From a virus: DNA of 47,647 nt. This document shows positions 5,694 through 37,729 of this stretch, one piece after another. Under the pieces are notes generated by a model. The model saw only the letters and a list, made by a program, of their open reading frames with translations, was not told where the DNA came from and did no database searches. The stretch covers positions 1 through 47,647 of the IMG/VR virus record IMGVR_UViG_3300042356_001764; one strand, 5' to 3'. Every line of letters starts with the position of its first letter. Position 1 is the stretch's first letter. The translations under genes were made by a program, and so were the position numbers.

Positions 5694-5972
5694 TTAAACA
5701 AATTTTATGTATCCTAGTGATTGCAATTTATCCTTCAACAACTTCAATGCTTTGTCTCTACTTTCTTCAGTAGAGTATTTAAAAATGATATTTTTGAATG
5801 GTTGGTTAGATTCATCCTCATCCATTTGATTAATGGTAATGTAGTAGTATTCATCCTCACCTTTTATCTCATGACTTTTTGATATTCGCTTTATTATAAA
5901 TGGCATCAATATCTCATCCTCAAATTCTATTAAGAATAGATATTTTTTTTCCTTCTCATTCTTTTCAGCCAT
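5694..5972 (-). CDS. Small hypothetical protein
   Basis: 92 residues, highly charged, with alternating beta-like segments (KYLFLIEFEDEILMPFIIKRI, then DEYYYITINQMD, then NIIFKYST) and a C-terminal helix ending QSLGYIKFV. It resembles a small alpha/beta adaptor domain, but I do not recognise a family. It sits three bases from the stop of the upstream gene and directly before the exonuclease, so it is translated in the same operon. Confidence 0.65.
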   Translation of the reverse strand: MAEKNEKEKKYLFLIEFEDEILMPFIIKRISKSHEIKGEDEYYYITINQMDEDESNQPFKNIIFKYSTEESRDKALKLLKDKLQSLGYIKFV

Positions 5973-5974
5973 AA

Positions 5975-7159
5975 TTACTTATTTTTACGTTTCTTTTCTA
6001 ATCTATTCTGACCAATCTCAGCTTGGATTTGAGATTCTAATTTACTCTTAACATTGTCTGCCTTCTTTTCAGCTAATTTTGCCAATAACAACTCTTTAAA
6101 AACATTCACTTCTTCATTATTTTGAGATTGAATCTTATATTTTTCTTTCTCATTTTCTCTGTCTTTAGTCCTAGATTCTTGTATTTTATCAATATTATCA
6201 AAATCATAAGTCAATGTTGAAGGAAATGAACTTTCAAAATCTGCATCTGTCGCTTCACCATCTAAAAATTTGGTAAATTTTGAATAATATGAATCATTCA
6301 AACTTTTGATAAACGCTGCTGGTGATATGTTTGTTTTTGAAGCTATCCTGCCTATGATTATTTCCTTCAAAGGAATTGTTTTCAACAACTCTCTTTGTAT
6401 ATGGTGTTGAATGTTAGTTTCAATTTTCAAATCAACTGTACCGTTGATGTGTAGTTGTTCACCTTCACTTTCTTTTCTTATTTGTTCAAGAGTCTTCAGA
6501 AGCAAATTGTAATCATCTCTACCCTTGAAATTCTCATATTTTGACTTCAAATTACCGTAAAGCCAAACCAATTCTTCAAGTCTCGAAGTCTTGTTATAAA
6601 GCCTGATATCGCCAAAAGACTTTTTAAATTCTTCAATTTTTATAGCTATCAATTGAGCATTTTGTCTCTTGAAAGACAAAACGGTATCCATACTCGTCTT
6701 CATCTTCCATTCTTTGTTGATTATATCAAGAACTTCTTTTGAAGAGAACATCCTACCAAACAACTCTATCAATTCATCTTTTCTTGAATCGAGAATTGAA
6801 GTCATGGTTCCCACAAAACCATTGTGTGGGTTGATTTTGAACGCTTGTCTTTTGAATGTATTTGCTCTACCCATAACCTTAGAGTATATGGATTTCAGCT
6901 GCATTATTTGTTTCACTTCTTTCTCTGGTAAGTGTGAAATCAACTTTTCCAAGTCTAATTTCAATCTTGCCAAATCAACTTCTTTACCATCAGAAGTTTC
7001 AACTCTCCTTCTTTCATTTAAAATTGGATGAATTAGACATTTTCTCCAACTCCTATATGCATCAATATCTACAACATTGTCGTGTTCTATAGTGTTTATG
7101 AACTTTAGCTGTTCATCTTCACTCATATTGCTTGATGATTTTTGTTTATCTTCAGACAT
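5975..7159 (-). CDS. Hypothetical protein with a possible HTH segment
   Basis: 394 residues, strongly charged, with a Lys/Arg-rich C-terminus (GQNRLEKKRKNK). A segment at about 140-170 (FSSKEVLDIINKEWKMKTSM) has the spacing of a helix-turn-helix, and long helical stretches surround it. The central and C-terminal parts are coiled-coil-like (Lys/Glu/Gln heptads at about 335-390). The combination of an HTH, an oligomerising coiled coil and a basic tail two to three genes upstream of the large terminase would fit a DNA-recognition or small-terminase role, but this is inference only. The upstream gene stops three bases before its ATG. Confidence 0.65.
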   Translation of the reverse strand: MSEDKQKSSSNMSEDEQLKFINTIEHDNVVDIDAYRSWRKCLIHPILNERRRVETSDGKEVDLARLKLDLEKLISHLPEKEVKQIMQLKSIYSKVMGRANTFKRQAFKINPHNGFVGTMTSILDSRKDELIELFGRMFSSKEVLDIINKEWKMKTSMDTVLSFKRQNAQLIAIKIEEFKKSFGDIRLYNKTSRLEELVWLYGNLKSKYENFKGRDDYNLLLKTLEQIRKESEGEQLHINGTVDLKIETNIQHHIQRELLKTIPLKEIIIGRIASKTNISPAAFIKSLNDSYYSKFTKFLDGEATDADFESSFPSTLTYDFDNIDKIQESRTKDRENEKEKYKIQSQNNEEVNVFKELLLAKLAEKKADNVKSKLESQIQAEIGQNRLEKKRKNK

Positions 7160-7161
7160 AA

Positions 7162-7662
7162 TTAATTCAATATTGCTTTACTAACAAAATCAAATCTTCT
7201 AGAGTTGTATCCATGATACGGATCATTACAAACCATACCTTCAAGTTTGTAGGTCAATCTATCGTCCAATAAATTGTAATAAACATCAATTATTTTATAC
7301 TGTCTATGTCTCTCTAACCAATCTCCAAAAAAGTCTTCTGGTTTTTCACTACTGTCTATACAAAGAACATATATCCCATTGGGAATTTCTGATTTTATAT
7401 ATTCGTATAAATATTGTAAATCTAAAGATTTCTCATATGTTATTTGAAATAATTCCAGATTTGTTGTTAAAAATGAGTGTATGTCGATTATCTTATTGAA
7501 ACTGTTGAAGTTATTGAACATCAAACCAACCTTTTCATTGTCTTGTTTTTCAACTGAAGCGGTTGTTAGATTAAATTGAATCTCATTATCGTTCAACAAT
7601 TCACTCATCTCTTTCAAGAGATTTTCAAATTTTATCCTATCGTATTCGTTATCGAATGACAT
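7162..7662 (-). CDS. Hypothetical protein
   Basis: 166 residues, acidic and aromatic-rich, with no recognisable catalytic motif, cysteine cluster or membrane segment. The middle part (GIYVLCIDSSEKPEDFFGDW) and the C-terminal NDPYHGYNSRRFDF are distinctive but not diagnostic. Its start overlaps the 3' end of the next upstream gene by 14 bases, typical of translationally coupled small genes in this block. Confidence 0.6.
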   Translation of the reverse strand: MSFDNEYDRIKFENLLKEMSELLNDNEIQFNLTTASVEKQDNEKVGLMFNNFNSFNKIIDIHSFLTTNLELFQITYEKSLDLQYLYEYIKSEIPNGIYVLCIDSSEKPEDFFGDWLERHRQYKIIDVYYNLLDDRLTYKLEGMVCNDPYHGYNSRRFDFVSKAILN

Positions 7663-7996
7663 ATTGTTTTTTATTAGTTATTATGGAATGAATACCTATT
7701 GATGTTAAATAACAACAGAAAAAATCAATTTCCATTTCTTTTCTTATCAATTCCATGTCAATTTTGAATTGTTCTGAAAAATAAAGTAAATAATCAGAAC
7801 ACATAATTTGCCATTTGCCTATATTACCCTCTGGCCAAATGGCTATAAACTTGTTTGGATTTTTAACTAATTCCAAAGATATTTGTCTATCACCAGCCTT
7901 CAAAGTTGTTGTATGTTTGATACTGTGAATCTCATTCAATAGATTAATGATTCCTTTCATCTTTGGAATCTCTAAAGCCTTTATTTTTTTCATCAC
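7649..7996 (-). CDS. Hypothetical protein
   Basis: 115 residues starting MMKKIKALEIPKMKGI. An N-terminal basic helix is followed by an alpha/beta region with IAIWPEGNIGKWQIMCSDY and a C-terminal hydrophobic helix (FFCCYLTSIGIHSII). Family not recognised. The start overlaps the upstream gene by four bases (ATGA), which indicates translational coupling; its own 3' end overlaps the next gene by 14 bases. Confidence 0.55.
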   Translation of the reverse strand: MMKKIKALEIPKMKGIINLLNEIHSIKHTTTLKAGDRQISLELVKNPNKFIAIWPEGNIGKWQIMCSDYLLYFSEQFKIDMELIRKEMEIDFFCCYLTSIGIHSIITNKKQYVIR

Positions 7997-8310
7997 TTAA
8001 CAATGAACCAATTGTTTGAATCTGAAAATTTTAGCTCAACATTCAAATCTTTATTATCTTGTAACATAGAATTCCAAGTGTTGATAAGATTAACAGGAAC
8101 AAATTCTGTTCTATTTTGTACAAACTCTGTAACATCAATACCTTTGCATTCCATGTAATTTATGGGCGATGTTGATGATTTAGAAGGTGGTGTGTATGTT
8201 GTTATGCAAAACACTCTCAAATCAGTGAAAAAATCTATAATCATCAACATTGAATTTGTCTTCTTTGATATATTATACAAAGATTTGTAATTTAATTCGT
8301 GTGGTTTCAT
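7993..8310 (-). CDS. Hypothetical protein
   Basis: 105 residues starting MKPHELNYKSLYNI. The core LMIIDFFTDLRVFCITTY looks like a buried beta strand pair. A Ser/Pro-rich loop follows, then charged helices. No family recognised. The ATGA overlaps on both sides tie it to the sigma-like gene upstream and to the next small gene downstream. Confidence 0.55.
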   Translation of the reverse strand: MKPHELNYKSLYNISKKTNSMLMIIDFFTDLRVFCITTYTPPSKSSTSPINYMECKGIDVTEFVQNRTEFVPVNLINTWNSMLQDNKDLNVELKFSDSNNWFIVK

Positions 8311-8930
8311 TTTTGAATGTATTCTTGTCTTATGTCTTTAAACTTTGTTTTGATAACTTCTAGATTCTCATTGAATACTTTCTTCGATATTCTGTTTTTT
8401 ATCATAAATACATCTTGGTCTCCACCGTCATCTATCTTAAACTTCAATATTTTTCTTTGTATCTTGCTCAGATTAAACTTGTCAGAATAATAATCAAAAA
8501 ATGTCAAGTTTATGTAAGTATAAACTTCAAAATCAACATAAAAGTCATTATCTACAAAATTTATGAATTTTGATTTCAAAGTCTTCTCATACATCCTGTA
8601 AAATGCTCTTGATAAAGATTTGTTATAATAAAAATGGAATGAGTATCTTTGCTTTAAGTCAAAATTCTTCACTGTCTTGTCAAAGATTAGGAAACATTCA
8701 GATATCAAATCAATATCTTCTAAATATGGAATAGAATTTGATTTCCTACATAAAGAAAAGAAATTATTCACATTCTTTACAGTGATTTCTTTCAATACAA
8801 AAAATAATCTTTGAAGATACAATTGTTTTATTGACTCTATTTTTGTTGATCGTATGATAATCAAATATAGTATGACTTTTTTTGAACTGTACCTACAATC
8901 CTGTGCTTTGAAAAAAGATTCTATACTCAT
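8307..8930 (-). CDS. Sigma-70-like factor candidate
   Basis: 207 residues. Residues around 65-112 (EDIDLISECFLIFDKTVKNFD, then YSFHFYYNKSLSRAFYRMYEK) reproduce the sigma region 2 pattern: an acidic start, a bulky helix, Lys-x-Phe-Asp, then aromatic-Ser-Phe-x-aromatic-Tyr and a basic helix. The C-terminal part (LSKIQRKILKFKIDDGGDQD followed by ISKKVFNENLEVIKTKFKDI) is compatible with a degenerate region 4. Size is close to T4 gp55 (185 residues), the late sigma factor. This is a pattern match by eye; a profile search would be needed to confirm it. The ATG overlaps the zinc-ribbon gene upstream by four bases. Confidence 0.45.
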   Translation of the reverse strand: MSIESFFKAQDCRYSSKKVILYLIIIRSTKIESIKQLYLQRLFFVLKEITVKNVNNFFSLCRKSNSIPYLEDIDLISECFLIFDKTVKNFDLKQRYSFHFYYNKSLSRAFYRMYEKTLKSKFINFVDNDFYVDFEVYTYINLTFFDYYSDKFNLSKIQRKILKFKIDDGGDQDVFMIKNRISKKVFNENLEVIKTKFKDIRQEYIQK

Positions 8931-9250
8931 CTTCCAGTCATTCTTTTAATGTCTTGATAAAACTTTTTTGATTGCTCTTCTTTTCGTTCTCTTATCTCTT
9001 TTTTGAAATGTTCTTGTGACCTTTTTTTGAGAATTGTTCTTTTATCTGCTTCCGACAACGAATTGAATCTTAAGTAACCACTAACTTCACCTATCTCCTC
9101 AAAAACCTCTATCATATCATTACTACAAAATTCACATTTTTCTGACTTATCATCATCACTCCATTTGTATCTTTTCAAGATATTATCTTTGTTTGTACAA
9201 TTATCACAAACACAAATAAATCTTCTATTAGTCATCCAATTTGTAGCCAT
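8927..9250 (-). CDS. Small zinc-ribbon protein
   Basis: 107 residues. Two knuckles, CVCDNC (residues 13-18) and CEFC (39-42), form a CxxC...CxxC pair that should bind one Zn ion. The rest is basic and helical (EHFKKEIRERKEEQSKKF). Such mini zinc ribbons in phage often act in transcription or as nucleic-acid adaptors. The gene is translationally coupled to the sigma-like gene downstream (four-base overlap), which would fit a joint transcription role, but the function is not established by sequence. Confidence 0.6.
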   Translation of the reverse strand: MATNWMTNRRFICVCDNCTNKDNILKRYKWSDDDKSEKCEFCSNDMIEVFEEIGEVSGYLRFNSLSEADKRTILKKRSQEHFKKEIRERKEEQSKKFYQDIKRMTGR

Positions 9251-9251
9251 A

Positions 9252-9761
9252 TTATTTTAATTCTTTAATTGTTAAATTCAATATACAAATAGCATCTGCA
9301 ACATTATCATCACCACCTTCGTACCCAAACTTGTCTTGAGCAGCCTTAATCATCAAAGGTTTTCCAGCATTACCATTCCCAGTTGCAAATTTCTTTATCT
9401 CTTTTGCTGAATAACCTCTGTGCTCTATATTTTTGTTTATACAAAAAGTTTCTATTATAGCAACAAATTTAGAATGACTAATAACAGCATTAGCATGATG
9501 TCCTGAAGGTCTCTCAAATGAGATTATCTTAACACCATACTTTTCGACAATATAAGACATTTTTCTTTCAAAGTTGATGAGTTTGTAACCAAAAGTCTCA
9601 TCTCTTTTTAACTTGAAGTCCCAAAGTCCGTGTTCACCGTTTGATAAAGCCCATCCAGTCTTCTCAGCTGGGTCAATAGCTAGGATAACGTTGTCTAATA
9701 AAAACTTATTGACAGATTTTTTCCTTAGTTCCGTAAGTCTCTTTGCCTCTGCTAATTTCAT
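9252..9761 (-). CDS. RuvC-like Holliday junction resolvase
   Basis: 169 residues with the RNase H-fold acidic tetrad: Asp30 in LAIDPAEKTGWAL, Glu83 in ISFERPSG, and Asp151/152 plus Asp156 in GGDDNVADAICI. The pattern (DPxxKTGxA ... ERP ... DDxADA) is that of RuvC-type resolvases. It would cut branched recombination and replication intermediates before packaging, the job done by gp49 in T4. It lies directly downstream of the gp46-like gene, one base beyond its stop, in the recombination cluster. The first about 22 residues are a basic helix not found in RuvC; the ATG at 9761 is the only good start. Confidence 0.85.
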   Translation of the reverse strand: MKLAEAKRLTELRKKSVNKFLLDNVILAIDPAEKTGWALSNGEHGLWDFKLKRDETFGYKLINFERKMSYIVEKYGVKIISFERPSGHHANAVISHSKFVAIIETFCINKNIEHRGYSAKEIKKFATGNGNAGKPLMIKAAQDKFGYEGGDDNVADAICILNLTIKELK

Positions 9762-9762
9762 T

Positions 9763-11622
9763 TTAAACTATTTTTGATACCTTATCTTTGAATTGAATTT
9801 GTATTCTGTTCCTACAATCTAACTCACTAGCTGAATGATGCGATATTAAGATTGATGTTATGTTTGTACTGTCTAGTATCTGAGTTGTTGCTTTTCTACC
9901 TCTGTAGTCTAAAGCCTCATCAAATTTTTCATCTATGGCTAAAAAGTTTAAACCACCTGACTCGCAAGAGTTATTTATCAGTGCGTGTGTTGCTAAAACT
10001 GATGATATATTTATCCTTGCTTTTTGTCCTCCTGAATATCTATTGAATCTACCAAGGTTTGAACCGTCCTTAACAACAAAGACTTCTATTTTTTCTCTAA
10101 GTTCACCGCTTTTCAACTTGGTGAATCCATTAATCTCCAATGCTAAATTTGTATTGTACTTCTTCAAATACAAATTTGTCATACCTTCAATACTCTTAAC
10201 AACTTTATTCGCAAGATAACTTATAAATCCCTTCCTGCTAAAATGGTGTTCCCAAAAATCATATTTTCTTTTTTCTTGTTCTAACAACTCAAACAATTCT
10301 TGACTTTCTGATAATTTTTGATTTTGTTCATCTAATTTAGCTTTCAACGGCTTCAGCTGCAAATCAACAGATTGTTTTTTCAAAAGCAAATCCTTGTTTT
10401 TTAATTCAACTAACTCGCTTTTTAATTGCTTAATATCATCAATAATCTCTTGTTTTTGCTCTTGCAATTCTTTTATTGAATCTTTTATTGTTCTAATCTT
10501 AAAATCTTGAGATTTGATTGAATTTAATTGTTCGTTTTTAAGTTTTACAACCTTATTGATAGATTCAATTTCTTTCTCTATCTTTTCAATGTCTTTATCA
10601 AGTTTCAATATTTGATTCTTGATTTCAGACAGTGGTGTTTCAGTAGTGAGGCTAAAATCATGCTTACACTTTGGACAAGTTATTGAATCATCTAGCAATG
10701 ATTTATTGTGCGTTAAATTTGATTTCAACAATCTTTTATCTTTGTTTAAGATATCAATTTTTGATTCAAATTGTCTTATTTCAGACTGTAAAGATTCTTT
10801 CTTATTAGACTCAGAATTTATACCTTCTATCTCTTCTTGTTTAGACACAATCTTCTCACTCAATTCTGTACTTTTGTTCGATATATTTTCAATCCTTGAT
10901 TGAATTGATTCAATCATTAACTTGTTGTTGTCTATTTTTGTCTTTCTAACCTCATCAAAAGATTCTTTTTTCAAATGTATCTCATTTTCAATCAGTTTTA
11001 TGCTGTTATCAATCTCATTTCTTACTACAAGTAATTCCTTGTAATCTTCAGATACCTCATGAGCATCATCTTCTATTATTGAAGATATCTTCTCTATTTT
11101 AGATATGTTAGAGAATCTTGTTATAATATCTTTCTTTTCAGAATCTGTACACCCTACAAATGGTTTGCCAGCACCTTCACCAATTATAAAGTAAGTGAGT
11201 AAGTCTTTTCTATTTATACCTATCTTAGATTCAATGTAAGAATTGAATTTATTTGGGTCTGTAATGTCTTTCTTCTCAATTCCATTCTCATATAAAACAT
11301 GAACAGCTTTTTTACTTCTGTAATAAGTCCTTTGTATTTTGATTTGTTCGTTCAAAACACTGTTTGTTAGAGAACATTCTACAAAACAACTACTCATATC
11401 GTCATTTATAAAATCCTCTCTATTCACATCTCTCAGCGTTGAACCTGTATATGCCAGCACAATACCTTCTATTATCGTTGACTTACCAGAAGCATTACTA
11501 TCACACTCTTCATCGTCTTGATTCAATCCATAAATCATTGTTGATTGATTTTGCACAAACTTTATGTTTGTATCAACATGTGAAAACAAGCCTTTTATCG
11601 TTATATAATCAATATTATACAT
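9763..11622 (-). CDS. SbcC/Rad50-like recombination ATPase (T4 gp46 type)
   Basis: 619 residues. A Walker A loop at 42-49 (SNASGKST) follows an extended GLNQ... lead. Two long coiled-coil arms flank a zinc hook CPKC at 316-319. The C-terminal lobe has the ABC signature YSGGQKARI (529-537), Walker B NFLAIDE (559-565) and a switch His in ISHH (593-596). With the nuclease encoded just upstream it forms the SbcCD/Mre11-Rad50 type complex that resects DNA ends to start recombination-dependent replication. It overlaps the gp47-like gene by eight bases, as expected for a stoichiometric complex. Confidence 0.93.
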   Translation of the reverse strand: MYNIDYITIKGLFSHVDTNIKFVQNQSTMIYGLNQDDEECDSNASGKSTIIEGIVLAYTGSTLRDVNREDFINDDMSSCFVECSLTNSVLNEQIKIQRTYYRSKKAVHVLYENGIEKKDITDPNKFNSYIESKIGINRKDLLTYFIIGEGAGKPFVGCTDSEKKDIITRFSNISKIEKISSIIEDDAHEVSEDYKELLVVRNEIDNSIKLIENEIHLKKESFDEVRKTKIDNNKLMIESIQSRIENISNKSTELSEKIVSKQEEIEGINSESNKKESLQSEIRQFESKIDILNKDKRLLKSNLTHNKSLLDDSITCPKCKHDFSLTTETPLSEIKNQILKLDKDIEKIEKEIESINKVVKLKNEQLNSIKSQDFKIRTIKDSIKELQEQKQEIIDDIKQLKSELVELKNKDLLLKKQSVDLQLKPLKAKLDEQNQKLSESQELFELLEQEKRKYDFWEHHFSRKGFISYLANKVVKSIEGMTNLYLKKYNTNLALEINGFTKLKSGELREKIEVFVVKDGSNLGRFNRYSGGQKARINISSVLATHALINNSCESGGLNFLAIDEKFDEALDYRGRKATTQILDSTNITSILISHHSASELDCRNRIQIQFKDKVSKIV

Positions 11623-19800: not shown

Positions 19801-20488
19801 ATCCCTCAGAATAAGACAATAATTTGGATTTTTCTATGTATCTGTGTTCGTGATTGTCTACATTGATTTGTTTGTTTATCCTTAATAAATTTCTCCATCC
19901 CAACTCATTCTTGACATACAGTTTGACCTCTTCAACATGAGAATCACTCTCTTTTGAATATTGTACAGTTACCGTCTCTCCTAATATCGACTTTATTTTG
20001 AATTTTTCACAGTGAGACTGTAATGCTAGTGTACCAGCAAGTGTGTTCTTATCACATATTCCAAGGCTTTTATGTTTTAAGAAATGAGCTTTTTTAACCC
20101 AATCTTCCAAATCACCATTGCCGCTCAATATCTCATACTCTGAATGAATCCCTAGATGACAAAAACCTATATCTTCTTCAGAGAATCCTATGTTTTTTAA
20201 CATATTCATCTCAACTTCGTAAGATACCACAGAATTCTTGTCTATCTTCTTTATGATTTTTGAATAATACCAATTTAATCCAAACTGATAACAAAAGAAA
20301 TCAGGAGAAGTTTTGTCAACTCTCCTGAAATCTTCATCAGTCATTATGAAATGAAAATCTTTATTTATGATTTTACCATTATCTCCATAAATCAACAATA
20401 ATTTTCCGAAATCTTGTATTTCAAACAAGAATTCATCTATTCTTGTGATTTGTAATTTGTACTCTGTAATCCAATCAGAAAATTCCAT
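16802..20488 (-). CDS. dnaE: DNA polymerase III alpha subunit (DnaE-type)
   Basis: 1228 residues. After an unusual roughly 110-residue N-terminal extension, the PHP domain begins with HLGIHSEYEIL. The palm shows VGTGRGSVAG (457-466), the catalytic pair Asp562/Asp564 in PDVDVDF and Asp722 in KEDILALNTL. RPGP, YQEQIM and YGFNKSHSAAY follow, then a helix-hairpin-helix (KIKGLASNTVEHIIQHR) and a C-terminal OB-fold. It is the likely replicative polymerase, with proofreading from the separate DnaQ-type exonuclease. Residues 496-558 are an insertion not expected in DnaE, with Hint-like features. The ATG overlaps the stop of the ThyA-family gene (TAATG). Confidence 0.95.
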   Translation of the reverse strand: MEFSDWITEYKLQITRIDEFLFEIQDFGKLLLIYGDNGKIINKDFHFIMTDEDFRRVDKTSPDFFCYQFGLNWYYSKIIKKIDKNSVVSYEVEMNMLKNIGFSEEDIGFCHLGIHSEYEILSGNGDLEDWVKKAHFLKHKSLGICDKNTLAGTLALQSHCEKFKIKSILGETVTVQYSKESDSHVEEVKLYVKNELGWRNLLRINKQINVDNHEHRYIEKSKLLSYSEGLILVFTKESLIYKIRDYKEIVKYLNSYDSFEEKYYQIDTVEYDSDETDIKNLESLSFYFNNFCDLIEPVLINDSYYIDRNNYNAKNYIDSITRVANPKSKSQYYKDGKESIELLYALFNQDKQYCSFSPDELIDKMIQNLSHISDNCNYKIDTGNHKLPKYDSGKDNNELFFELIQEGIEKKLKDVDIDKYLERIEKECDLIIKSGFVDYFLILWDFVKWSKSNDIDVGTGRGSVAGCLVAYLIDITTIDPIKHDLLFERFMNETRMMPEEWYVLSLGDKEKSIIKGTEVKLSNNEIKLVEELSVGDDIVEFKGNKIESIKVEKRGRQDQIPDVDVDFLSDRRDEVKRYISQRYGVNNTCSIGAYTTMKLKGALKDFSRAKGLDFKHVNFVTSKIPNQLEYEWADLFKYAVRSEIIRDFVQKNNDVVDVIQYTLKQPRAISIHASAVVITPKFNSKGESMTVFDWLPIRKVDGFLVSEWEGKYIDKAGFLKEDILALNTLDKFKMTLNLIERDHGDVVKFEELPLDDEATYKLFKKGYTEDIFQFGSDGLKQYSKLVKPDNIEELIAMNALYRPGPMKSNAHTDFADIKFGRKKPDFDPLMEVVTKHTYGLYVYQEQIMQAMVVAGMTLIEADMVRTQIKKFDKVAMNKFKDKFVSLYAEKLQSKISKESSIVESNRVWDKLMMFSSYGFNKSHSAAYSLMSYWCQYLKAHYPLQFWTTAFDKAGEEDIPNILSEMFKVSKHIKVIPPDINKSITVFDCDKNTNSIYWSLSKIKGLASNTVEHIIQHRSKTPFKNLSDFISRVEKSKVNKAKVFSLILSGCFDNLYGITIDNPSKRLEIIIEYVELTKNYDLLDKIEQDSVSHEFYWKIKQKELTGLGFIDYESILSQKVRKKFSMYYTSPKDFFDGKKDYQKCFIAGILRDVYERDSKRGKFAFITLDNNDFVLEGNIWNETYKNWQDKLPKLKGKMIALSASIKYDTFNNRNKNIFHTNEFTEIFEL

Positions 20489-21708
20489 TAAAACTTACCT
20501 AAATTTTTGATTCCAATCAATGTATAATACTTATCAAACAATTCTTTTGACTTGATTCTCTTCATAAAGAAGTTTAATGATAATACAATGAAGTCAGCCT
20601 TTCTAAGAGACTCATATTTTTCAAAACAAAGAACAGATAAAATTCTGTCTATCGCTTCTGTTCGATTAACATCCTCTTTCTTGGAATTTTTATACAACAA
20701 GTAAATTTGAAGTAACATCATAACCAACGATAGGTATATTGACTTTTTTTCAATTCTTTTGGGTATCAAAAACGCTTTAGCATCATCTCCTACAATATGA
20801 CTTGTGCACTTGATTATGTAATTCAATGTGGAATCAATATCATTCAACTTCTCACCTGTATTGTCATAGAATTCTTCAAAGTTGAAATCTATCTTGACCG
20901 CTTCACTCACTTCGTATAAATCAACATTGTTTGTATTCATTTCAACATTTTCAAACATCGTCCAAGCAGTTTGATTGTCCAAATATATATGAAGACTATC
21001 GCTATTATGCGTTTGTTGTCCTAACTCAACGCCTAAAATCAATGAAATCATTTCGCTTAAAAACGAAAATTGATACAGATTTGTTGTCAATCCCCAATGT
21101 AAATCATTACTTCTGTTAGAGATTGTTGTGAATAATTTTCCACCTCTTAATTTTAAGAATACTAAATCATTGCACGGCAAATCTTTAGAGTTGACGTTTA
21201 AATCATATTCAGCATCCCAAATTTCCATTACAACTCTTCTTGAGTTAGAATCTTTGGATAACATTTGTAATGCTTCGTAGACTTGGTCTAAACCTTGAGA
21301 TGTGTGTATGTTGCTACTCTCGTATTCCATTTCTGAATTCGCACCGTAATTTCTCAACCTCCAACCATATGGTGAGTGGAAATACTTACCATTATCCGAA
21401 TAATCAGACATTCTTGAGTTGAATTGCGTTAGATATTCAACATCTCTCTTACCAGTGAAAATCCAAATAGCTTCAGCCATAAGGAAAAAAATATTCACAT
21501 CTCTCTCAAATCCACCAACACATCTCCTATATGGATTAGTTATTGATGTCTTAAAAGACATTATCTCTTTTGTTCTTCCATTTCTAGAATCGTTGTTTTC
21601 AGCCTTGAGCAACATGTGTCTGTTTAAAACAGGATACATTGAAGAAAATGTGTCACCCTTGATAGAGTCTGTATCTGGTGAGAATTTGAATTTATTATTA
21701 TCTGTCAT
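20488..21708 (-). CDS. Thymidylate synthase (ThyA) family protein
   Basis: Start taken at the ATG at 21708 (MTDNNKFKF; 406 residues), because the earlier in-frame ATG at 21741 lies in the terminator upstream. Catalytic Cys179 sits in LPCNDLVF. The dUMP phosphate site SRR is at 156-158. The nucleotide-binding NRSNDLHWGLTTNLYQF has Asp202 and Asn210, and His240/Tyr242 follow in LHIYLDN. Asn at 210 suits a uracil base; dCMP hydroxymethylases such as T4 gp42 have Asp there. So dTMP or 5-hydroxymethyl-dUMP formation is possible. About 135 extra helical residues at the C-terminus are not part of ThyA. Confidence 0.8.
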   Translation of the reverse strand: MTDNNKFKFSPDTDSIKGDTFSSMYPVLNRHMLLKAENNDSRNGRTKEIMSFKTSITNPYRRCVGGFERDVNIFFLMAEAIWIFTGKRDVEYLTQFNSRMSDYSDNGKYFHSPYGWRLRNYGANSEMEYESSNIHTSQGLDQVYEALQMLSKDSNSRRVVMEIWDAEYDLNVNSKDLPCNDLVFLKLRGGKLFTTISNRSNDLHWGLTTNLYQFSFLSEMISLILGVELGQQTHNSDSLHIYLDNQTAWTMFENVEMNTNNVDLYEVSEAVKIDFNFEEFYDNTGEKLNDIDSTLNYIIKCTSHIVGDDAKAFLIPKRIEKKSIYLSLVMMLLQIYLLYKNSKKEDVNRTEAIDRILSVLCFEKYESLRKADFIVLSLNFFMKRIKSKELFDKYYTLIGIKNLGKF

Positions 21709-21730
21709 ACTTATTATAACTTTGCTTAAA

Positions 21731-21765
21731 ATAAAAAACACCTGCTTGATTGTAAGCAGGTGTTT
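21731..21765 (-). terminator. Strong terminator after the acidic protein gene
   Basis: A perfect 12-bp stem (AAACACCTGCTT 21736-21747 with AAGCAGGTGTTT 21754-21765) and a six-base loop, followed on the minus strand by TTTTTTATTTT. It is 20 bases beyond the stop of the gene at 21785-22759 and just before the ThyA-family start. Confidence 0.88.
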
Positions 21766-29536: not shown

Positions 29537-30382
29537 TTATATTGTTATTGTGTTACTAGAATCAACCCAATTAGACCATATATTAGTTATGTTATTCTTC
29601 AAACGGAATGATAATTTGTAAACACCTGAACCGAAATTAACATAATTTATGAATCCTATTGCTACATTTTGCGGAATCAATTCATTATTCTTATACCATC
29701 TGTATTCATAAGTTAATAAACTAGAATTATTTGTTGGTATAGACCAAGTACCAATACTATTGACAATTATTGTGTTTTCTGATGTAAGTTTAAAAATAAC
29801 TGGTTGTATTATATTGACTGGTGCGCTAATTACTGTTGTAGTTGTTGTGGTGGTTGTGGTGGTTGAAGTTGTAGTTGTTGTGGTGGTTGTAGTGGTTGTT
29901 GTAGTTGTGGTTGTCGAAGTTGTAGTTGTTGTTGTGGTGGTTGTGGTTGTTATATTAGTATCTTTCACAAAGACAATTATCACCAAATTAGCCACAGCAT
30001 CTTGAGGTACTATAATTCCTTTGATTTTATAATCAAGATTGAAAGATTCAACATTCAATGCGCTGAACTGTGAAAATAACCCTAATGAATCTTCATTAAG
30101 ATTATTAATCAATTCAAACTTCAAAGGAACGTTATTTGTTCCATCAAAATATGATAAATTAATGTCTATTCCCACAATCTCGCTTAATGATACGTTTGGT
30201 GGCAACAATTCAATAAAACTCTTCTCAAAGGGATTGTCTTTAACCAATTCAAACACAAAGGTTTGAACTTGATTATTAACTAAATTAGATTCTGAACCTT
30301 TGATTAAAGATTGAAATCTACTTTCAACAGAATTTAAATCATCTGTAATGGTTATTGTTTTTGATATTGATATATTCTTCAT
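29537..30382 (-). CDS. Poly-Thr linker protein with C-terminal Ig-like domain (fibre candidate)
   Basis: 281 residues: an N-terminal beta-rich domain (1-143), then 39 residues of Thr broken only by two Ser (145-183: 11 Thr, Ser, 16 Thr, Ser, 10 Thr), then a C-terminal domain with TYEYRWYKNNELIPQ and GVYKLSFRLKNNI strands typical of Ig/PKD-like folds. The architecture (anchor, mucin-like stalk, beta-sandwich head) suits an exposed fibre or receptor-contact protein. Thr tracts of this kind are classical O-glycosylation substrates; two glycosyltransferase-like genes lie about 3 kb upstream in the same unit. Function inferred. Confidence 0.7.
   Translation of the reverse strand: MKNISISKTITITDDLNSVESRFQSLIKGSESNLVNNQVQTFVFELVKDNPFEKSFIELLPPNVSLSEIVGIDINLSYFDGTNNVPLKFELINNLNEDSLGLFSQFSALNVESFNLDYKIKGIIVPQDAVANLVIIVFVKDTNITTTTTTTTTTTSTTTTTTTTTTTTTTTTSTTTTTTTTTTVISAPVNIIQPVIFKLTSENTIIVNSIGTWSIPTNNSSLLTYEYRWYKNNELIPQNVAIGFINYVNFGSGVYKLSFRLKNNITNIWSNWVDSSNTITI
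29834..29950 (-). repeat. Thr-codon repeat tract
   Basis: Thirty-nine consecutive codons, 37 ACN and two Ser. ACA, ACC and ACT are shuffled rather than identical. A 17-base core (ACAACAACTACAACTTC) recurs at a distance of 51 bases around the two Ser codons, which shows a past tandem duplication inside the tract. On the other strand it produces a spurious poly-Val frame. Confidence 0.9.
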
Positions 30383-30385
30383 TCC

Positions 30386-32659
30386 TTAAATATTTGAATA
30401 ATTTGTTAGTATATATATTGTTGTTTGAGTTGAAGAAAACGATGTCAAATTAGCAATGTATCTCATAGTACCATCGCTGTATATTGTCAAATTTGTGAAT
30501 ATAAACCCAACACCATTCCCAAACAATGCTATTGGAATGTTAATTTCACTAAATGGTCTGAAACCCACTGGCAATGTGGCGAAATTTTCTGCAACTAAAC
30601 CACTCGCCGTTATCACTTTAGTCAAACTCCCCTCAATCCAAATTCTACCATTATCTCTCCTAACTTTCAATCCTTCAGCTGTTGAACTCCAACCGTTTAT
30701 TAGTGTGGCTAATTGATTATTCCAGTCTGTATCAGCGTAATTTGGTTTTAATCTATCTATTATCCAATAATCAGAACCTTCTCTTGTCATCGTTATATCA
30801 AATATAACAAATGGCGCCAGTTGAACTTCTGAAAATTCAGCAATTATAGTTCCAGATTCAGAACCTAGTTTGAATTGAACTTTTTTACCATCAAAATCAA
30901 GGAAATTTGTACTCATTCTTACTTGGAAGTTGATTCTTGGTAAGAATAATGAGTTTGAGCTAGGTAAGACAAAAATAAGATTATCTGATAATGATTGATT
31001 GTTGTTATTAATTGTTACTCTATCAGAAACGGTAAGTGGGTTCAAATAAATTATGGGATTTGAATTAGTAAGTATTATAGTTTCAAATCCTATCTTCTGT
31101 CCTAGTGATACAGAATTTGGATTCTTGACCAATACAACTTTACTAGAATTAATTGTCCTAGTTTTTGTATTGTCAACTAGATTACCGTTGGTATCGAAAG
31201 CCTCTTCAGTATAGTAAATATTGGAATCTTCAATCTGATAATAATCAGAATATGCTGAATTATTCTTCAGTCTAAATTTAATTGTATATGTATTTGCCGC
31301 CTCTGAACCTTCAAATTTTATCCATGGTTCAACAGATAATAGCAATTTTCCAGAACAATCTAATATTGGAAATTCTACAGAACCGTTTTTATTTGGTTTT
31401 TCTGGTATCGGAATCGTTAATGGGAATGTTATTGGAGCATTACCACTTAATGATTCATAAAATATCTCTATCGAATCAGCATCTGGCGTAACTCTAACCT
31501 CTGATGCGTTTACAAAGTTAGACATATCTAACTTCTCTAAGATTATTTCATGTGTTGAACCAACTTGCGTGCTTGAAATTATCTTAGAATACTGTCCATT
31601 ATTCCAATAAAATCTACAACCTACAAAAGCATTGGTTGCTAGATTGGTAACGCTCTTAAACCAACCACCAGAACCAGCGTTGAATGTTATTTTATTTAAA
31701 GTTGAATTTACAGAATAAGATTTGCTTCTGAACCCCCAGCCAATCAAAACCTCGTTTCTATCTCTAATGTCACCAAACGGTAAATGTTTTACAGATTCAA
31801 CACCTAATAATTTTTTTTGTAACGAAAAATTATTTAATGATTGAATTTTTGCGATGCTATATGAAGATTGAGTTTTATAAATATCATTTCTCTTGTCTTC
31901 TATTATCAATTCGTTTGGTGACGAACCTCTCCACACTCTCGCTATATATATGTCTGAACTTTCCAATTTAACAGGCTCAACATCAGTTGTTGTTTCTACT
32001 ACATAATAAGGGTCAGGACTATTAGTCGGTAGTCCATTTAATTGACAAGAATCATATTCGTATATGTCTTTATCTTGACTAGGAACAACATATCCTGGAG
32101 TAAATGAGCCTACTACAACATATTTCAAACCACTTTCAGCAACCAAAACGTTTGACGGTACTGCCAAGGTTAAATTATTGTCATCAATTATTTGAGAAAT
32201 CTCATATTCTTGATTATTGGAAGAGTTGATAAATTTAATTTTGGTTGGAAATTTACTTGTTTGTGTTCTTAGAACTTCTGTAAATTTTGTACCAACTCCA
32301 ACAACTTCACCAATAGTGTTTACTGATACAGTGCCAATTTCTCTATATTCTTTTCTTTGTCTAATAAAAATCCAAAATTTATTAGTTTGATTTGGAATAA
32401 GCAAATTATCAACATCTGAGTCGAGTTTTATTAAATTCAGATTTGAATCTATTGCTAAACCTGATTTGATTTTTATCGTATTTGCCGAAGAACCAGCAAC
32501 AACCTTAAAATCATCAAAAACTGAAAGTGAATCATTTTTCAATATCCCGAAAGATGCAGACTGTTTTGACAATATAGATTTGTCGAATATGAATTCTTTG
32601 AGTCTATTTAACTCTTCTTTTTCTAAGAATTGGTTTGCTCCTGTTTTTAAATTAGACAT
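30386..32659 (-). CDS. Large tail fibre / baseplate-attached adhesin candidate
   Basis: 757 residues, the second-largest virion candidate here, beta-rich with many Ser/Asn/Thr/Ile and no Cys clusters. The C-terminal part (RRDNGRIWIEGSLTKV, then LPVGFRPFSEINIPIAL, then LTIYSDGTMRYI) has the pattern of fibre-tip head domains (x-LPxGFRPx ... G-x-I-x-x-DG) seen at the ends of phage tail fibres. The N-terminal helical segment (FLEKEELNRLKEFIFDKSIL) could attach to the baseplate. It overlaps the GT-like gene upstream by eight bases. Receptor binding is inferred. Confidence 0.65.
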   Translation of the reverse strand: MSNLKTGANQFLEKEELNRLKEFIFDKSILSKQSASFGILKNDSLSVFDDFKVVAGSSANTIKIKSGLAIDSNLNLIKLDSDVDNLLIPNQTNKFWIFIRQRKEYREIGTVSVNTIGEVVGVGTKFTEVLRTQTSKFPTKIKFINSSNNQEYEISQIIDDNNLTLAVPSNVLVAESGLKYVVVGSFTPGYVVPSQDKDIYEYDSCQLNGLPTNSPDPYYVVETTTDVEPVKLESSDIYIARVWRGSSPNELIIEDKRNDIYKTQSSYSIAKIQSLNNFSLQKKLLGVESVKHLPFGDIRDRNEVLIGWGFRSKSYSVNSTLNKITFNAGSGGWFKSVTNLATNAFVGCRFYWNNGQYSKIISSTQVGSTHEIILEKLDMSNFVNASEVRVTPDADSIEIFYESLSGNAPITFPLTIPIPEKPNKNGSVEFPILDCSGKLLLSVEPWIKFEGSEAANTYTIKFRLKNNSAYSDYYQIEDSNIYYTEEAFDTNGNLVDNTKTRTINSSKVVLVKNPNSVSLGQKIGFETIILTNSNPIIYLNPLTVSDRVTINNNNQSLSDNLIFVLPSSNSLFLPRINFQVRMSTNFLDFDGKKVQFKLGSESGTIIAEFSEVQLAPFVIFDITMTREGSDYWIIDRLKPNYADTDWNNQLATLINGWSSTAEGLKVRRDNGRIWIEGSLTKVITASGLVAENFATLPVGFRPFSEINIPIALFGNGVGFIFTNLTIYSDGTMRYIANLTSFSSTQTTIYILTNYSNI

Positions 32660-33608
32660 AGTTTATGTTTTTTACTTTTAAGATTGCTTCTACGTACTTT
32701 ATAGTTGAAATGTCTGTTTTGATATTGCTAAAATCATCATTGAATGGGTGTCTTGCTTGATATTTTGATTTGTAGAATACACCAATAGAATTAGAATCAA
32801 CTCCAGCATTGTGGAATATTTTACAATTGTTATATTTCTCAATAGAATCATTTGGCCAGCAAAAATCCAACTCATTATGAACTATAGTGTTTTTACCATA
32901 AAACCAAAGATTCCATAAAACTCCCCACATATCAGCACACCATTTTTGTATTGGATTGTAATCCTTAATTTGTTCTGTAGATAATTTGTTTCTTTCTTCT
33001 ATCTCATATTTGAAGAAATATTCATACAAATTAACTGAATCTTTCTCAACTTTTCTCCAAAATTCAGAATCAACCTTATTAATCAAATATTGAGCACCAC
33101 CAGAATTTTTGTTGTTTTCAATAGCTAATTTAAAATCAACATTTGTTATTTCGGACATCTTACTCAAATGATGAGTAGATTTTTCTGAAATATAATCAGC
33201 GTTTATGTAAGAGTTTGTGTCACTTAAATAACAATTTGAGTCATCTAATAGCGAGAAATCTATTTTTTTTCTGAAGATTATATCACAGTCATGATAAAAT
33301 ATTATTTTGTTGTTCAACTCAGGGAATCTTGTATAATGTTTTGCTATTATGTGAGGTCTGATAGATGGAATGTAACCTTTATTGTCTTTCACCTCATTCT
33401 TGTAATAATGAATCCCAACTTTTGGGAATTTTTTTATCAAATTTTTGACTCCTTCTGAAACATTAAAATCTCTATAGGCAAACAACACATTTATTTGTTC
33501 AGGATTGATTCCAACTTCTAAAAAGTTGATAATCATAACCTCCACTTGCCAATGGAAGTAAGTTGTGTCAGGTTGTGCGCAAATGTAAACTATTTCTTGT
33601 TCTTTCAT
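32652..33608 (-). CDS. Glycosyltransferase-like protein (GT-A fold, DxD)
   Basis: 318 residues. IVYICAQPDTTYFHWQVEVM starts a Rossmann-like fold. IIFYHDCDIIF contains the DxD metal/UDP-sugar motif (107-109), preceded by SIRPHIIAKHY. A GGAQYLIN segment and WCADMWGVLWNLW follow, typical of acceptor and donor pocket loops in GT-A enzymes. Most likely it transfers a sugar from a nucleotide donor. It is encoded between two Thr-tract fibre candidates and partially overlaps its neighbours (four and eight bases), so it belongs to this unit. Substrate unknown; modification of the fibres or of host surface glycans are the main options. Confidence 0.65.
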   Translation of the reverse strand: MKEQEIVYICAQPDTTYFHWQVEVMIINFLEVGINPEQINVLFAYRDFNVSEGVKNLIKKFPKVGIHYYKNEVKDNKGYIPSIRPHIIAKHYTRFPELNNKIIFYHDCDIIFRKKIDFSLLDDSNCYLSDTNSYINADYISEKSTHHLSKMSEITNVDFKLAIENNKNSGGAQYLINKVDSEFWRKVEKDSVNLYEYFFKYEIEERNKLSTEQIKDYNPIQKWCADMWGVLWNLWFYGKNTIVHNELDFCWPNDSIEKYNNCKIFHNAGVDSNSIGVFYKSKYQARHPFNDDFSNIKTDISTIKYVEAILKVKNINYV

Positions 33609-34375
33609 AAATATTTAGCAATAAGATTGTAAACTTCTTGATTTCTTGAAAAGAAATACATATTTTTGTAATAATGAGCTACATCAACATACTTTAAATT
33701 GGTATTACCAAAATCAGTGGATGAATTCTTGTGATTCTCGAAATTATTTGGATTGTTTATGTCACCACTTTGTTTGTGTGGAGCAACCTCATCACCCCAA
33801 TTAAAACAATAACTCTCAAAAGGTGATGTTTGTTCTATCAACATTTGCTCATCTTGTTGAATCTTAGATAGCCATCCTAAGTGCTCTGAACCAGTTTCTT
33901 TTTTGAATCCATACATTCTTATGTATGATATATCAACAATAATTGATGCTTCCATTGCGTTTTCAGCCAATTCAAAACTCTGACCACCGTTCTTAGAGAA
34001 GAATGAGTGTTTAGGCTTCCAAGCTAACTTGCCCGATTCAACTAATTTATTCATACTAAAAGACATATGATACGGCATGTATAAATCATCATCGTCCCAA
34101 CAAATATAATAATCTCCAGTTGCATAACTCAGCGCATCCTTTCTTATATCACCTATGTTCGTGTAGGGTAATTTTGATTCAGAATCAATGCTTTGATTAA
34201 TTACTGTTATATTTTTATTCAATAGTGAATCATCTAATACAAGATGTTTAGATGCTGTATTGAAGATTATCAACTCTTTGTTTTCATAATCTTGATTTAA
34301 AAACATTGACAACGACCTTTGTACGCATGTAAATCTTCCATACGTACACATTATCGCACTTATTTTCTTATTCAT
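33605..34375 (-). CDS. Family 2 glycosyltransferase
   Basis: 256 residues. ISAIMCTYGR is the typical GT2 N-terminal strand and loop. YICWDDDDLYMP (residues 90-101) holds the acidic donor-binding motif, and GDIRKDALSYATGDYYICWD is the usual GT2 lead into it. The C-terminal half with WLSKIQQDEQMLIEQTSPF likely forms the acceptor side. No membrane segment, so a cytoplasmic enzyme that would act on a protein or soluble glycan before virion assembly. It overlaps the second GT-like gene by four bases. Confidence 0.82.
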   Translation of the reverse strand: MNKKISAIMCTYGRFTCVQRSLSMFLNQDYENKELIIFNTASKHLVLDDSLLNKNITVINQSIDSESKLPYTNIGDIRKDALSYATGDYYICWDDDDLYMPYHMSFSMNKLVESGKLAWKPKHSFFSKNGGQSFELAENAMEASIIVDISYIRMYGFKKETGSEHLGWLSKIQQDEQMLIEQTSPFESYCFNWGDEVAPHKQSGDINNPNNFENHKNSSTDFGNTNLKYVDVAHYYKNMYFFSRNQEVYNLIAKYL

Positions 34376-34385
34376 ATTTCTTTAA

Positions 34386-34940
34386 TTAAGTTTTAAACCA
34401 CACAACATTTTTTACAAATACTTGATTAGGACATCCGTCTTTTGATATGGTTATAACAGTACCATCAGAATCTACAAAATTATCAAATAACATCAAATCA
34501 CCACTGAGACTTAACAAATTAGCACCATTATTTGTTGTAAATGTAAATGTAGGAACAGACAAGCAATTGAAATCACCCGTCATGCGAACTTGTGTACGTG
34601 TATTCTGTACCATTGTCAATATAACTGGACACTCTGGACAAGCAGTTGTTGTAGTGGTCGTGGTTGTCGTAGTTGAGGTTGTTGTTGTAGTGGTTAATGT
34701 TGTTGTAGACGTTGTTGTGGTTGAACTTGAAGTTGTGGTTGTAAATGTTGTTGAAGTTGTTGTAAATGTTGTTGTAGACGTTGTTGTGCTAGATGTTGTA
34801 CTAGTTGGAAATGCTGTTGTAGTTGTTGTTGTAGGCAAGGTGGTTGTTGGGGCAAAATCAATATCTGAATTTATTAATTCAACTATGATATTACAATTTA
34901 TTGGCAACAAATCTCTTCTTATTCTTTCTGTAAAATTCAT
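34386..34940 (-). CDS. Thr/Ser-rich (mucin-like) virion protein with Cys-containing C-terminal domain
   Basis: 184 residues. A 30-residue N-terminal segment (MNFTERIRRDLLPINCNIIV) is followed by a Thr/Ser/Pro tract (31-99), in which hydrophobic residues (Phe, Leu, Ala, Pro) recur, and then a beta-rich C-terminal domain with Cys101/Cys104 (CPEC), Cys126 and Cys170. It resembles an attachment protein with a stalk. It immediately follows the gpI-like baseplate gene and precedes the two glycosyltransferase genes. The Thr/Ser tract makes it a candidate acceptor for O-linked sugars. Function inferred from composition and position. Confidence 0.7.
   Translation of the reverse strand: MNFTERIRRDLLPINCNIIVELINSDIDFAPTTTLPTTTTTTAFPTSTTSSTTTSTTTFTTTSTTFTTTTSSSTTTTSTTTLTTTTTTSTTTTTTTTTTACPECPVILTMVQNTRTQVRMTGDFNCLSVPTFTFTTNNGANLLSLSGDLMLFDNFVDSDGTVITISKDGCPNQVFVKNVVWFKT
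34644..34850 (-). repeat. Thr/Ser codon repeat tract
   Basis: About 69 codons, mainly ACN and TCN/AGT, with near-repeated units encoding TTSTTTL and TTSTTTF. The DNA block AATGTTGTTGTAGACG (plus strand) appears twice, about 70 bases apart, so local duplications have built the tract while synonymous codons have diverged. Confidence 0.85.
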
Positions 34941-36499: not shown

Positions 36500-37729
36500 C
36501 TATACGTTGCTGATTAATGTTGATTGGAATATTGAATCAGGAGTGTTTGGATAAAATACAGGATTTAATGTCCCTGACACATTGGCAATTATATTTCCTA
36601 ACAAGTCTCTCATTATGAATGAGCGAATCCTTGGTAATTTGTTTGATTGTATCAATATGTCTTGAGAAGGTGAAAAATTTTCATCTGGAACATACTTAAC
36701 ATTTTCAGTTTGTTTTGTTATAAATAACAACTCATCCCAATCAACCTTGTCTTTAAAAACATCCCAATATCTGTAATCTAGATACTTATTCATATTTATC
36801 TGAATCTCTCTTCTAGTGTCGTCAGATATCCCATTATCGAACAACTCAACTCTAAAATCTACATCTATAGGAGTGAATTCTATATTGTTTATCACGAATC
36901 CAAAATTTGAATATCTAGATACTGGAAAATTGTCGCTTAAAGATAAGACTTTTTGTAATTTTTCTTGTATTACTTGAATCTCAGGAGTTGATAAATTAGA
37001 ACCATCTACACAAATAACTCCAATAACAACTCTACCGTTTGAGTCTATACCATGGTGGAATGCTCTAAGTATTCTTGGATTTTCTTTAAACAAAAATTGT
37101 TCAAATCCAGAGAATGTGTTTCTTGACAATATGTTTGTAGCTGAAAATAGTCTGTTTCTCATATTCTCATCATTCTCTTCATCTTGTCCTCCAGTGGCAG
37201 CATATTCATTTATACAATAAATATGTCCTAACGGTACAGGATTAACAGAATTCAATGTTAAGGAATCAACGTTAGAATTTGAACCAACTGTTTGTGAAGC
37301 TACTTTGACATAAGCAAAACCGATGTTATTTGGGGGTATAGGAGTACTAGGTATTGATACAGTTTTAACAACATCGAATACAACACCGTTTTTACCAGTG
37401 AAAGTTGTCACACCTGCCGTATAAGTCGTATTTGGTTCGCCAACAACTCTAATCCAAGTTGTAGAACCATTTGCTGGAAATCTTGCTGGGAATCCTTCTC
37501 TTTCGGCTATTTCGTCTAAATATTCTCCAAAAGCAGTATCTTGAAATAATCTACTTTCGATTATAGAAATATCCTTTGTTATCTTGTTTGCTAATTTGGA
37601 ACTACCGAAAGCAATACCACGTAAAACAGAAAGATTTGACGACTTGGTTACTGAATCTGTATTATTGAAAAGATTTTCTAAAAAAATCTCTACTAATTCT
37701 GTTGTTGGAGTTATTCTTGTTTTTATCAT
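36500..37729 (-). CDS. Baseplate J-like protein (wedge, gpJ / T4 gp6 family)
   Basis: 409 residues. FGEYLDEIAEREGFPARFPA is the usual start of baseplate J proteins, followed by the beta-rich AGVTTFTGKNGVVFDVVKTV (GxxFtg-G--F) and the conserved TGGQDEENDENMRNRLFSA (GG-DeE-DE-lR-Rl). FSGFEQFLFKENPRILRAF continues the J-domain. It forms the wedge ring of the baseplate. Overlaps the upstream gp25/W-like gene by four bases. Confidence 0.88.
   Translation of the reverse strand: MIKTRITPTTELVEIFLENLFNNTDSVTKSSNLSVLRGIAFGSSKLANKITKDISIIESRLFQDTAFGEYLDEIAEREGFPARFPANGSTTWIRVVGEPNTTYTAGVTTFTGKNGVVFDVVKTVSIPSTPIPPNNIGFAYVKVASQTVGSNSNVDSLTLNSVNPVPLGHIYCINEYAATGGQDEENDENMRNRLFSATNILSRNTFSGFEQFLFKENPRILRAFHHGIDSNGRVVIGVICVDGSNLSTPEIQVIQEKLQKVLSLSDNFPVSRYSNFGFVINNIEFTPIDVDFRVELFDNGISDDTRREIQINMNKYLDYRYWDVFKDKVDWDELLFITKQTENVKYVPDENFSPSQDILIQSNKLPRIRSFIMRDLLGNIIANVSGTLNPVFYPNTPDSIFQSTLISNV

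Follow-up and report, generated by a model that had tools for sequence, protein, structure and literature searches.

The 47.6-kb viral contig analysed here (IMG/VR record IMGVR_UViG_3300042356_001764, hereafter the window) carries, after its baseplate genes, a cassette in which two proteins with threonine/serine (Thr/Ser) tracts enclose two putative glycosyltransferases, a GT2 enzyme and a member of the family phrog_4417. Among isolated phages, several genes point to Chryseobacterium phage MA9V-3 as the nearest relative, with identities of 33% for DNA polymerase III alpha, 37% for the baseplate J-like protein, 28% for the fibre and 40% for the phrog_4417 protein. All genes of the cassette are on the minus strand, and the baseplate J-like gene (36500..37729, minus strand) lies upstream in the same operon and provides the tail-module context. 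It is followed, in order, by a 184-aa stalk protein (protein A, 34386..34940), a 256-aa SpsA-like GT2 glycosyltransferase (33605..34375), presumably an accessory or second-sugar enzyme, the 318-aa phrog_4417 protein (32652..33608), presumably an oligo-Thr protein O-glycosyltransferase on the grounds of profile, model and linkage given below, a 757-aa tail-fibre-like protein (30386..32659; phrog_3639 minor tail protein, 1e-4) and a 281-aa tract protein (protein B, 29537..30382). Proteins A and B, the presumed glycan acceptors, are thus each encoded two genes from the phrog_4417 gene, A upstream and B on the other side. The sequence-only reading of this DNA had placed two tract proteins around a GT2 gene and a second, DxD-containing gene in one operon past the baseplate genes, and the coordinates confirm this, but it omitted the 757-aa fibre gene between the phrog_4417 gene and the downstream tract protein. 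Likewise, the four- to eight-base overlaps that it reported hold for the GT2/phrog_4417 junction (4 bases) and the phrog_4417/fibre junction (8 bases), while the remaining junctions are gaps of 1-10 bases.

The two tracts differ in form. Protein B has one unbroken run of 39 Thr/Ser residues between its N- and C-terminal domains (residues 145-183, nt about 29834-29950), whereas protein A has a stalk of 68 residues (residues 32-99, nt about 34644-34847), followed by a small C-terminal domain. A few F, P, A and L residues break up this otherwise almost entirely Thr/Ser stalk, whose longest pure run is 17; it is aptly called "almost pure" but not "pure". The Thr codons of the two tracts are mixed (48 ACA, 17 ACC, 15 ACT and 4 ACG), which disfavours simple trinucleotide or microsatellite slippage as their origin, and the tracts are not chance. 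Proteins A and B are virion-operon proteins. They are presumed fibres in the earlier reading, and across the phrog_4417 family the linked proteins include capsid and tail-tube proteins.

The 318-aa protein matches the phrog_4417 profile over its full length (5.1e-74, profile positions 3-292 of 293). This family, whose members include "prophage pi2 protein 34" and LP65 Orf49, is labelled "unknown function" in PHROG, and sequence searches with the protein gave no Pfam match and no PDB match. Relatives were found in viral contigs (61) and isolate phages (74), and the family occurs in Enterococcus, Lactobacillus, Staphylococcus and Lactococcus phages. An AlphaFold model built from an alignment of 38 relatives has a GT-A glycosyltransferase fold (predicted local distance difference test, pLDDT, 91; predicted template-modelling score, pTM, 0.90). 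A structure search of the PDB with this model returned 183 matches at E<=0.001, and among the matches listed (50) all are glycosyltransferases, the best being the UGGT catalytic domain, WbbM, XXYLT1, Skp1 alpha-galactosyltransferase, GT6 enzymes, LARGE1 and COLGALT1; viral structure matches include LP65 Orf49 (template-modelling score, TM, 0.72) and GT8 proteins. The protein has an HDxD motif, whose residues D107 and D109 (D107-C-D109, 33282..33290, minus strand) are invariant in the 38 sequences and are also present in phage VPE25, and H266-N267-A268-G269 and K280 near the C terminus are invariant in the same alignment. Because of the GT-A model, the structural matches and the invariant DxD, a glycosyltransferase is the best reading of this protein, with sugar transfer as its predicted activity, in line with the earlier suggestion that the DxD protein is glycosyltransferase-like.

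Neither glycosyltransferase has a membrane segment, as had been claimed for them, the maximum 19-residue hydropathy being 1.05 and 0.83 for the two enzymes. This bears on the alternative that the tracts are unmodified flexible spacers and that both enzymes alter host surface glycans, for serotype conversion or superinfection exclusion. Phage glycosyltransferases that alter host O-antigen are established, which lends this alternative some weight, but besides lacking a membrane segment, the two enzymes have no Gtr flippase or bactoprenol glycosyltransferase partner among the neighbouring and other window proteins that were scanned, and their genes lie inside a virion operon.

GT2 matches PF00535 at 1.5e-8 (35.2 bits against a gathering cut-off of 23.3), which places it in GT2 by the CAZy criterion; its best PDB relative is SpsA (9e-5), and it carries a WDDDD motif. 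An AlphaFold model from two sequences was unusable (pLDDT 41), and no claim is built on it. The sole close relative in the viral collection is 41% identical and is encoded in contig L002, where it adjoins tail proteins rich in PT/PA repeats. With a single close relative, the role of GT2 is weakly supported, and the simplest guess is that it may elongate the glycans of the stalks or modify the stalks separately. The L002 locus is an observation in its own right: at 5969-10925, PTPAPTP-type tail proteins are followed by a GlcNAc-transferase-like protein (PF11397, 1e-35), the GT2, a 2-oxoglutarate (2OG)-Fe(II) oxygenase (PF13640, 3e-18) and a GT4-like protein. Hydroxyproline chemistry is suggested by the oxygenase. 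The cassette looks to be another, different acceptor-modification set, possibly one for hydroxyproline glycosylation in a phage. Like the window, it has a GT2 beside tail proteins with repetitive hydroxyl/proline acceptors, here together with a GT60-like PF11397 protein and the oxygenase, but the repeats are PT/PA, and phrog_4417 was not found in the stretch of L002 examined.

To see how regularly phrog_4417 accompanies Thr tracts, the genes around 59 phage-type phrog_4417 loci, the number left after dereplication by clustering at 80% identity, were read. Metagenomic contigs are partly redundant, but the key counts are dereplicated. Open reading frames (ORFs) were called mechanically, and an oligo-Thr run was taken as at least 5 Thr or at least 8 Thr/Ser. 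The sequence-only reading had named, as an observation that would count against it, relatives whose glycosyltransferase genes are never near Thr-tract genes. The opposite was seen: the ORF at position -1 of phrog_4417 has an oligo-Thr run in 47 of 55 loci, and the ORF at +1 in none (0/55). In the ten contigs analysed whole (25-354 coding sequences each), most tract genes lie one to three genes before the glycosyltransferase (offsets -1 to -3). The link spans Bacillota and Bacteroidota phages. Most viral metagenome contigs, jumbo-sized ones included, encode long PTTTTTTxAP-type stalks, and the tracts of Bacillota phages and prophages are short tails at the C terminus, for example "...FGKPYPSTTTTTTTTTSA" and "...TTTTTTTTSA". 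The tailed Bacillota proteins are mutually unrelated (major capsid, connector and major tail proteins), and tails occur within the same genome on a capsid protein of ~390 aa, a protein of ~105 aa encoded right after the capsid and the major tail protein. For instance, the capsid protein and orf13 of Lactococcus phage 1706, whose phrog_4417 gene is orf14, both terminate in "TTTTTTTTTHHD". Even in phage VPE25, where the glycosyltransferase gene follows the capsid region, the major tail protein encoded five genes further on has a T-tail. As a separate observation, a prophage-like locus of Chitinophaga sp. YR573 (L409:7063-9038) has two tandem phrog_4417-like genes after a Thr/Ser-tract protein.

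The same survey addresses the possibility that the phrog_4417 enzyme modifies the adjacent 757-aa fibre or other virion domains, with the oligo-Thr runs serving only as docking or solubility tags. MA9V-3 has the identical gene order (tract gene, glycosyltransferase, fibre), and the protein following phrog_4417 in that phage is 28% identical to the 757-aa protein, so that a fibre gene comes after the glycosyltransferase gene in both phages, as this possibility would have it. The gene after the glycosyltransferase in Bacillota phages is no fibre, however, and oligo-Thr itself is the only feature common to the phrog_4417-linked proteins; we consider this possibility very unlikely.

A further test was made within one protein family. 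Bacillaceae-type major tail protein homologues were gathered by their tail-less body from viral contigs, isolates and 159 genomes, and the presence of a T-tail agrees with that of a downstream glycosyltransferase gene in 43 of 43 loci (12 with both, 31 with neither; Fisher 6.5e-11, some of the 43 being near-duplicates). A tree of the tail-less bodies with 30 distinct rows has eight changes of glycosyltransferase state, the tail being concordant each time, and three of these changes are forced by well-supported branches. As there are only three fully supported independent pairs, a phylogenetic sign test alone is not significant, and the strength of the within-family test is the absence of any discordant case. 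Similarly, major capsid proteins have a T-tail in 4 of 4 cases with the glycosyltransferase and in 0 of 4 without it. Judged from these sequences, gains and losses of the Thr tail go with those of the glycosyltransferase gene, several of them independent, among tail proteins that are otherwise similar, and modification of the host surface leaves this co-gain and co-loss unexplained.

The association was also examined in the reverse direction, by searching the viral collection for runs of 14 Thr codons with no reference to any glycosyltransferase and counting in-frame loci. A phrog_4417 gene lies within two genes, mostly adjacent, of 13 of the 98 in-frame poly-Thr loci versus none of 61 in-frame poly-Gly loci. 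For the first 80 poly-Thr loci, family members make up 7 of 92 near genes and 0 of 234 far genes (Fisher p = 1.2e-4), and phrog_4417 is the most frequent of the 164 PHROG families among poly-Thr neighbours. Whole-contig counts agree (6/41 poly-Thr contigs versus 0/40 poly-Gly contigs), and the loci with both features include crAss-like contigs, identified via a muzzle domain among the neighbours. A general proximity of poly-Thr tracts to any glycosyltransferase is unsupported, with GT2-type Pfam matches in 3 of 92 near and 2 of 92 far genes, and the neighbourhood signal is specific to phrog_4417. A looser nucleotide pattern, WCN x8, was dropped, and ORF-level tests were used in its place, because acidic tracts read in antisense, as well as Ser codons, match it too. 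Two further observations concern poly-Thr loci. At a distance of at least four genes from the tracts, the most frequent Pfam family is that of the 2OG-Fe(II) oxygenases (PF13640; 8/92 genes). In addition, a second recurrent glycosyltransferase-like family is encoded directly after poly-Thr tail genes (L164:4243-5067, L167:3895-4731 and L207:11612-12436) in a different phage lineage without phrog_4417.

Relatives in cellular genomes point to the type of substrate. About twenty Bacteroidota chromosomal homologues of phrog_4417 are long forms of about 500-700 aa, and those of L373, L380, L398, L408 and other loci lie in lanthipeptide and grasp-with-spasm clusters, which are gene clusters for ribosomally synthesised and post-translationally modified peptides (RiPPs). 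The Pedobacter and Chitinophaga clusters examined encode LanB dehydratase, LanC-like proteins, C39-peptidase transporters, grasp-with-spasm maturases and leader-peptide precursors; Thr-rich stretches occur in some nearby candidate precursors (L376, L382), and the long form of L380 has a second glycosyltransferase-like domain, PF02709. The long forms are apparently uncharacterised RiPP glycosyltransferases, and the presence of homologues in such clusters suggests that the family probably acts on peptides. The long forms differ from the window enzyme in being longer and outside virion operons, whereas the window enzyme is encoded in a tail operon and not in a RiPP cluster.

One may argue that the two enzymes glycosylate modified bases of the phage DNA. 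The window does encode, at 20488-21741, a 417-aa protein similar to thymidylate synthase and CMP 5-hydroxymethylase, which may be a base-modification enzyme, as well as a YfbR-like deoxynucleotidase, both as in phages with hypermodified bases. But the glycosyltransferase genes belong to the tail operon and are about 11 kb away from these genes, phrog_4417 is found behind tail or capsid genes in many phages and behind RiPP genes in cellular genomes, and DNA glycosylation has no link to the co-occurrence with T-tails, which makes this explanation extremely unlikely.

It is highly probable, on the basis of the genomic comparisons and the structural model, that this cassette is the phage's own module for O-glycosylating its virion, in which the phrog_4417 enzyme targets the oligo-Thr(/Ser) of virion proteins. 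Virion O-glycosylation had already been proposed from the sequence, and linkage, co-inheritance and the GT-A fold support it for phrog_4417, a support that does not extend to GT2. Several observations weigh against it. Some phage-type phrog_4417 loci, though few, have no tract nearby, as at L004-L006, where the gene is found behind a non-structural-looking gene with no oligo-Thr near. Conversely, phrog_4417 is missing near 85 of the 98 poly-Thr loci in the stretch examined and from 35 of the 41 contigs searched whole, and it is not nearby in 49 of the 58 poly-Thr loci for which 1.2 kb or more of the downstream sequence could be seen; GT2, for its part, has that one close relative in the viral collection. 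A tract by itself does not, then, imply a phrog_4417 enzyme, and many poly-Thr proteins must either be handled by other enzymes or stay unmodified. Tracts without phrog_4417 are also a point in favour of unmodified spacers and host-directed enzymes, which we nevertheless regard as very unlikely given the co-gain and co-loss.

In the proposed mechanism of virion O-glycosylation, the soluble phrog_4417 GT-A enzyme would act in the host cytoplasm, before assembly, recognising oligo-Thr(/Ser) in freshly synthesised virion proteins and moving a sugar from a host nucleotide-sugar onto Thr hydroxyls. The acceptors in the window phage would be the stalks of both tail-operon proteins, A and B, and the neighbouring GT2 would probably add a further sugar or modify the same acceptors. 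Tail-tip proteins would thereby acquire a sugar coat that resembles mucin, is extended, resists proteases and acts as a shield. More broadly, it is probable that oligo-Thr is a portable glycosylation tag, placed on unrelated virion proteins (capsid, connector, tail tube and tail-tip stalks), read by the single cytosolic family phrog_4417, kin of RiPP-cluster glycosyltransferases, and co-gained and co-lost with it across Bacillota and Bacteroidota phages, crAss-like and jumbo phages included. If so, virion glycosylation is common and unrecognised in phages outside mycobacteriophages. The joint occurrence of phrog_4417 and Thr-tailed virion proteins, seen in phages from two bacterial phyla, is a strong indication that many phages deliberately put sugars on their own particles. 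A widespread family labelled "unknown function" would thereby gain a proposed function and a readable acceptor signature, which predicts the virion proteins that are glycosylated in culturable Lactococcus, Enterococcus, Lactobacillus and Staphylococcus phages. Removing one gene makes it possible to test what phage glycosylation is for, be it shielding, stability or host attachment, and the pairing suggests a compact enzyme-tag system for glycoprotein production in bacteria.

Among known systems, mycobacteriophage enzymes O-glycosylate capsid and tail-tube subunits at their C-termini, according to PMC12619734, which cites Freeman et al. 2023. As far as the searched literature shows, virion glycosylation by phage enzymes was established earlier for mycobacteriophages only, and the titles and abstract openings retrieved, mostly outside subscription papers, contain no earlier account of oligo-Thr tags on virions or of glycosylated major tail proteins. 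The two systems are alike in their phage-encoded glycosyltransferases. The mycobacteriophage proteins modified at the C terminus are the same two that are oligo-Thr-tailed in Bacillota relatives; in the window the tracts are internal stalks of other proteins. Homology of the enzymes is rejected, since the three annotated glycosyltransferases of Che8, gp108-gp110, have no profile similarity to phrog_4417 (hhalign probability 0.2% each). Moreover, the Che8 genes are far from the structural genes, unlike phrog_4417 in its tail operon, and oligo-Thr is absent from the capsid and tail proteins of Che8, which terminate in "...NKTGS" and "...YSDGS". With the retaining GT-A enzymes of GT8, GT24 and GT6 (UGGT, XXYLT1, Skp1 alpha-galactosyltransferase, LARGE1), phrog_4417 has the overall fold and the DxD in common, but it is a distant family, with 7-13% identity among the matches listed and a query-normalised TM of about 0.3-0.5. 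Within phrog_4417 itself, the enzymes of Bacillota phages accompany capsid and tail-tube proteins with short C-terminal tails, whereas that of the window accompanies long internal stalks of tail-operon proteins together with an extra GT2.

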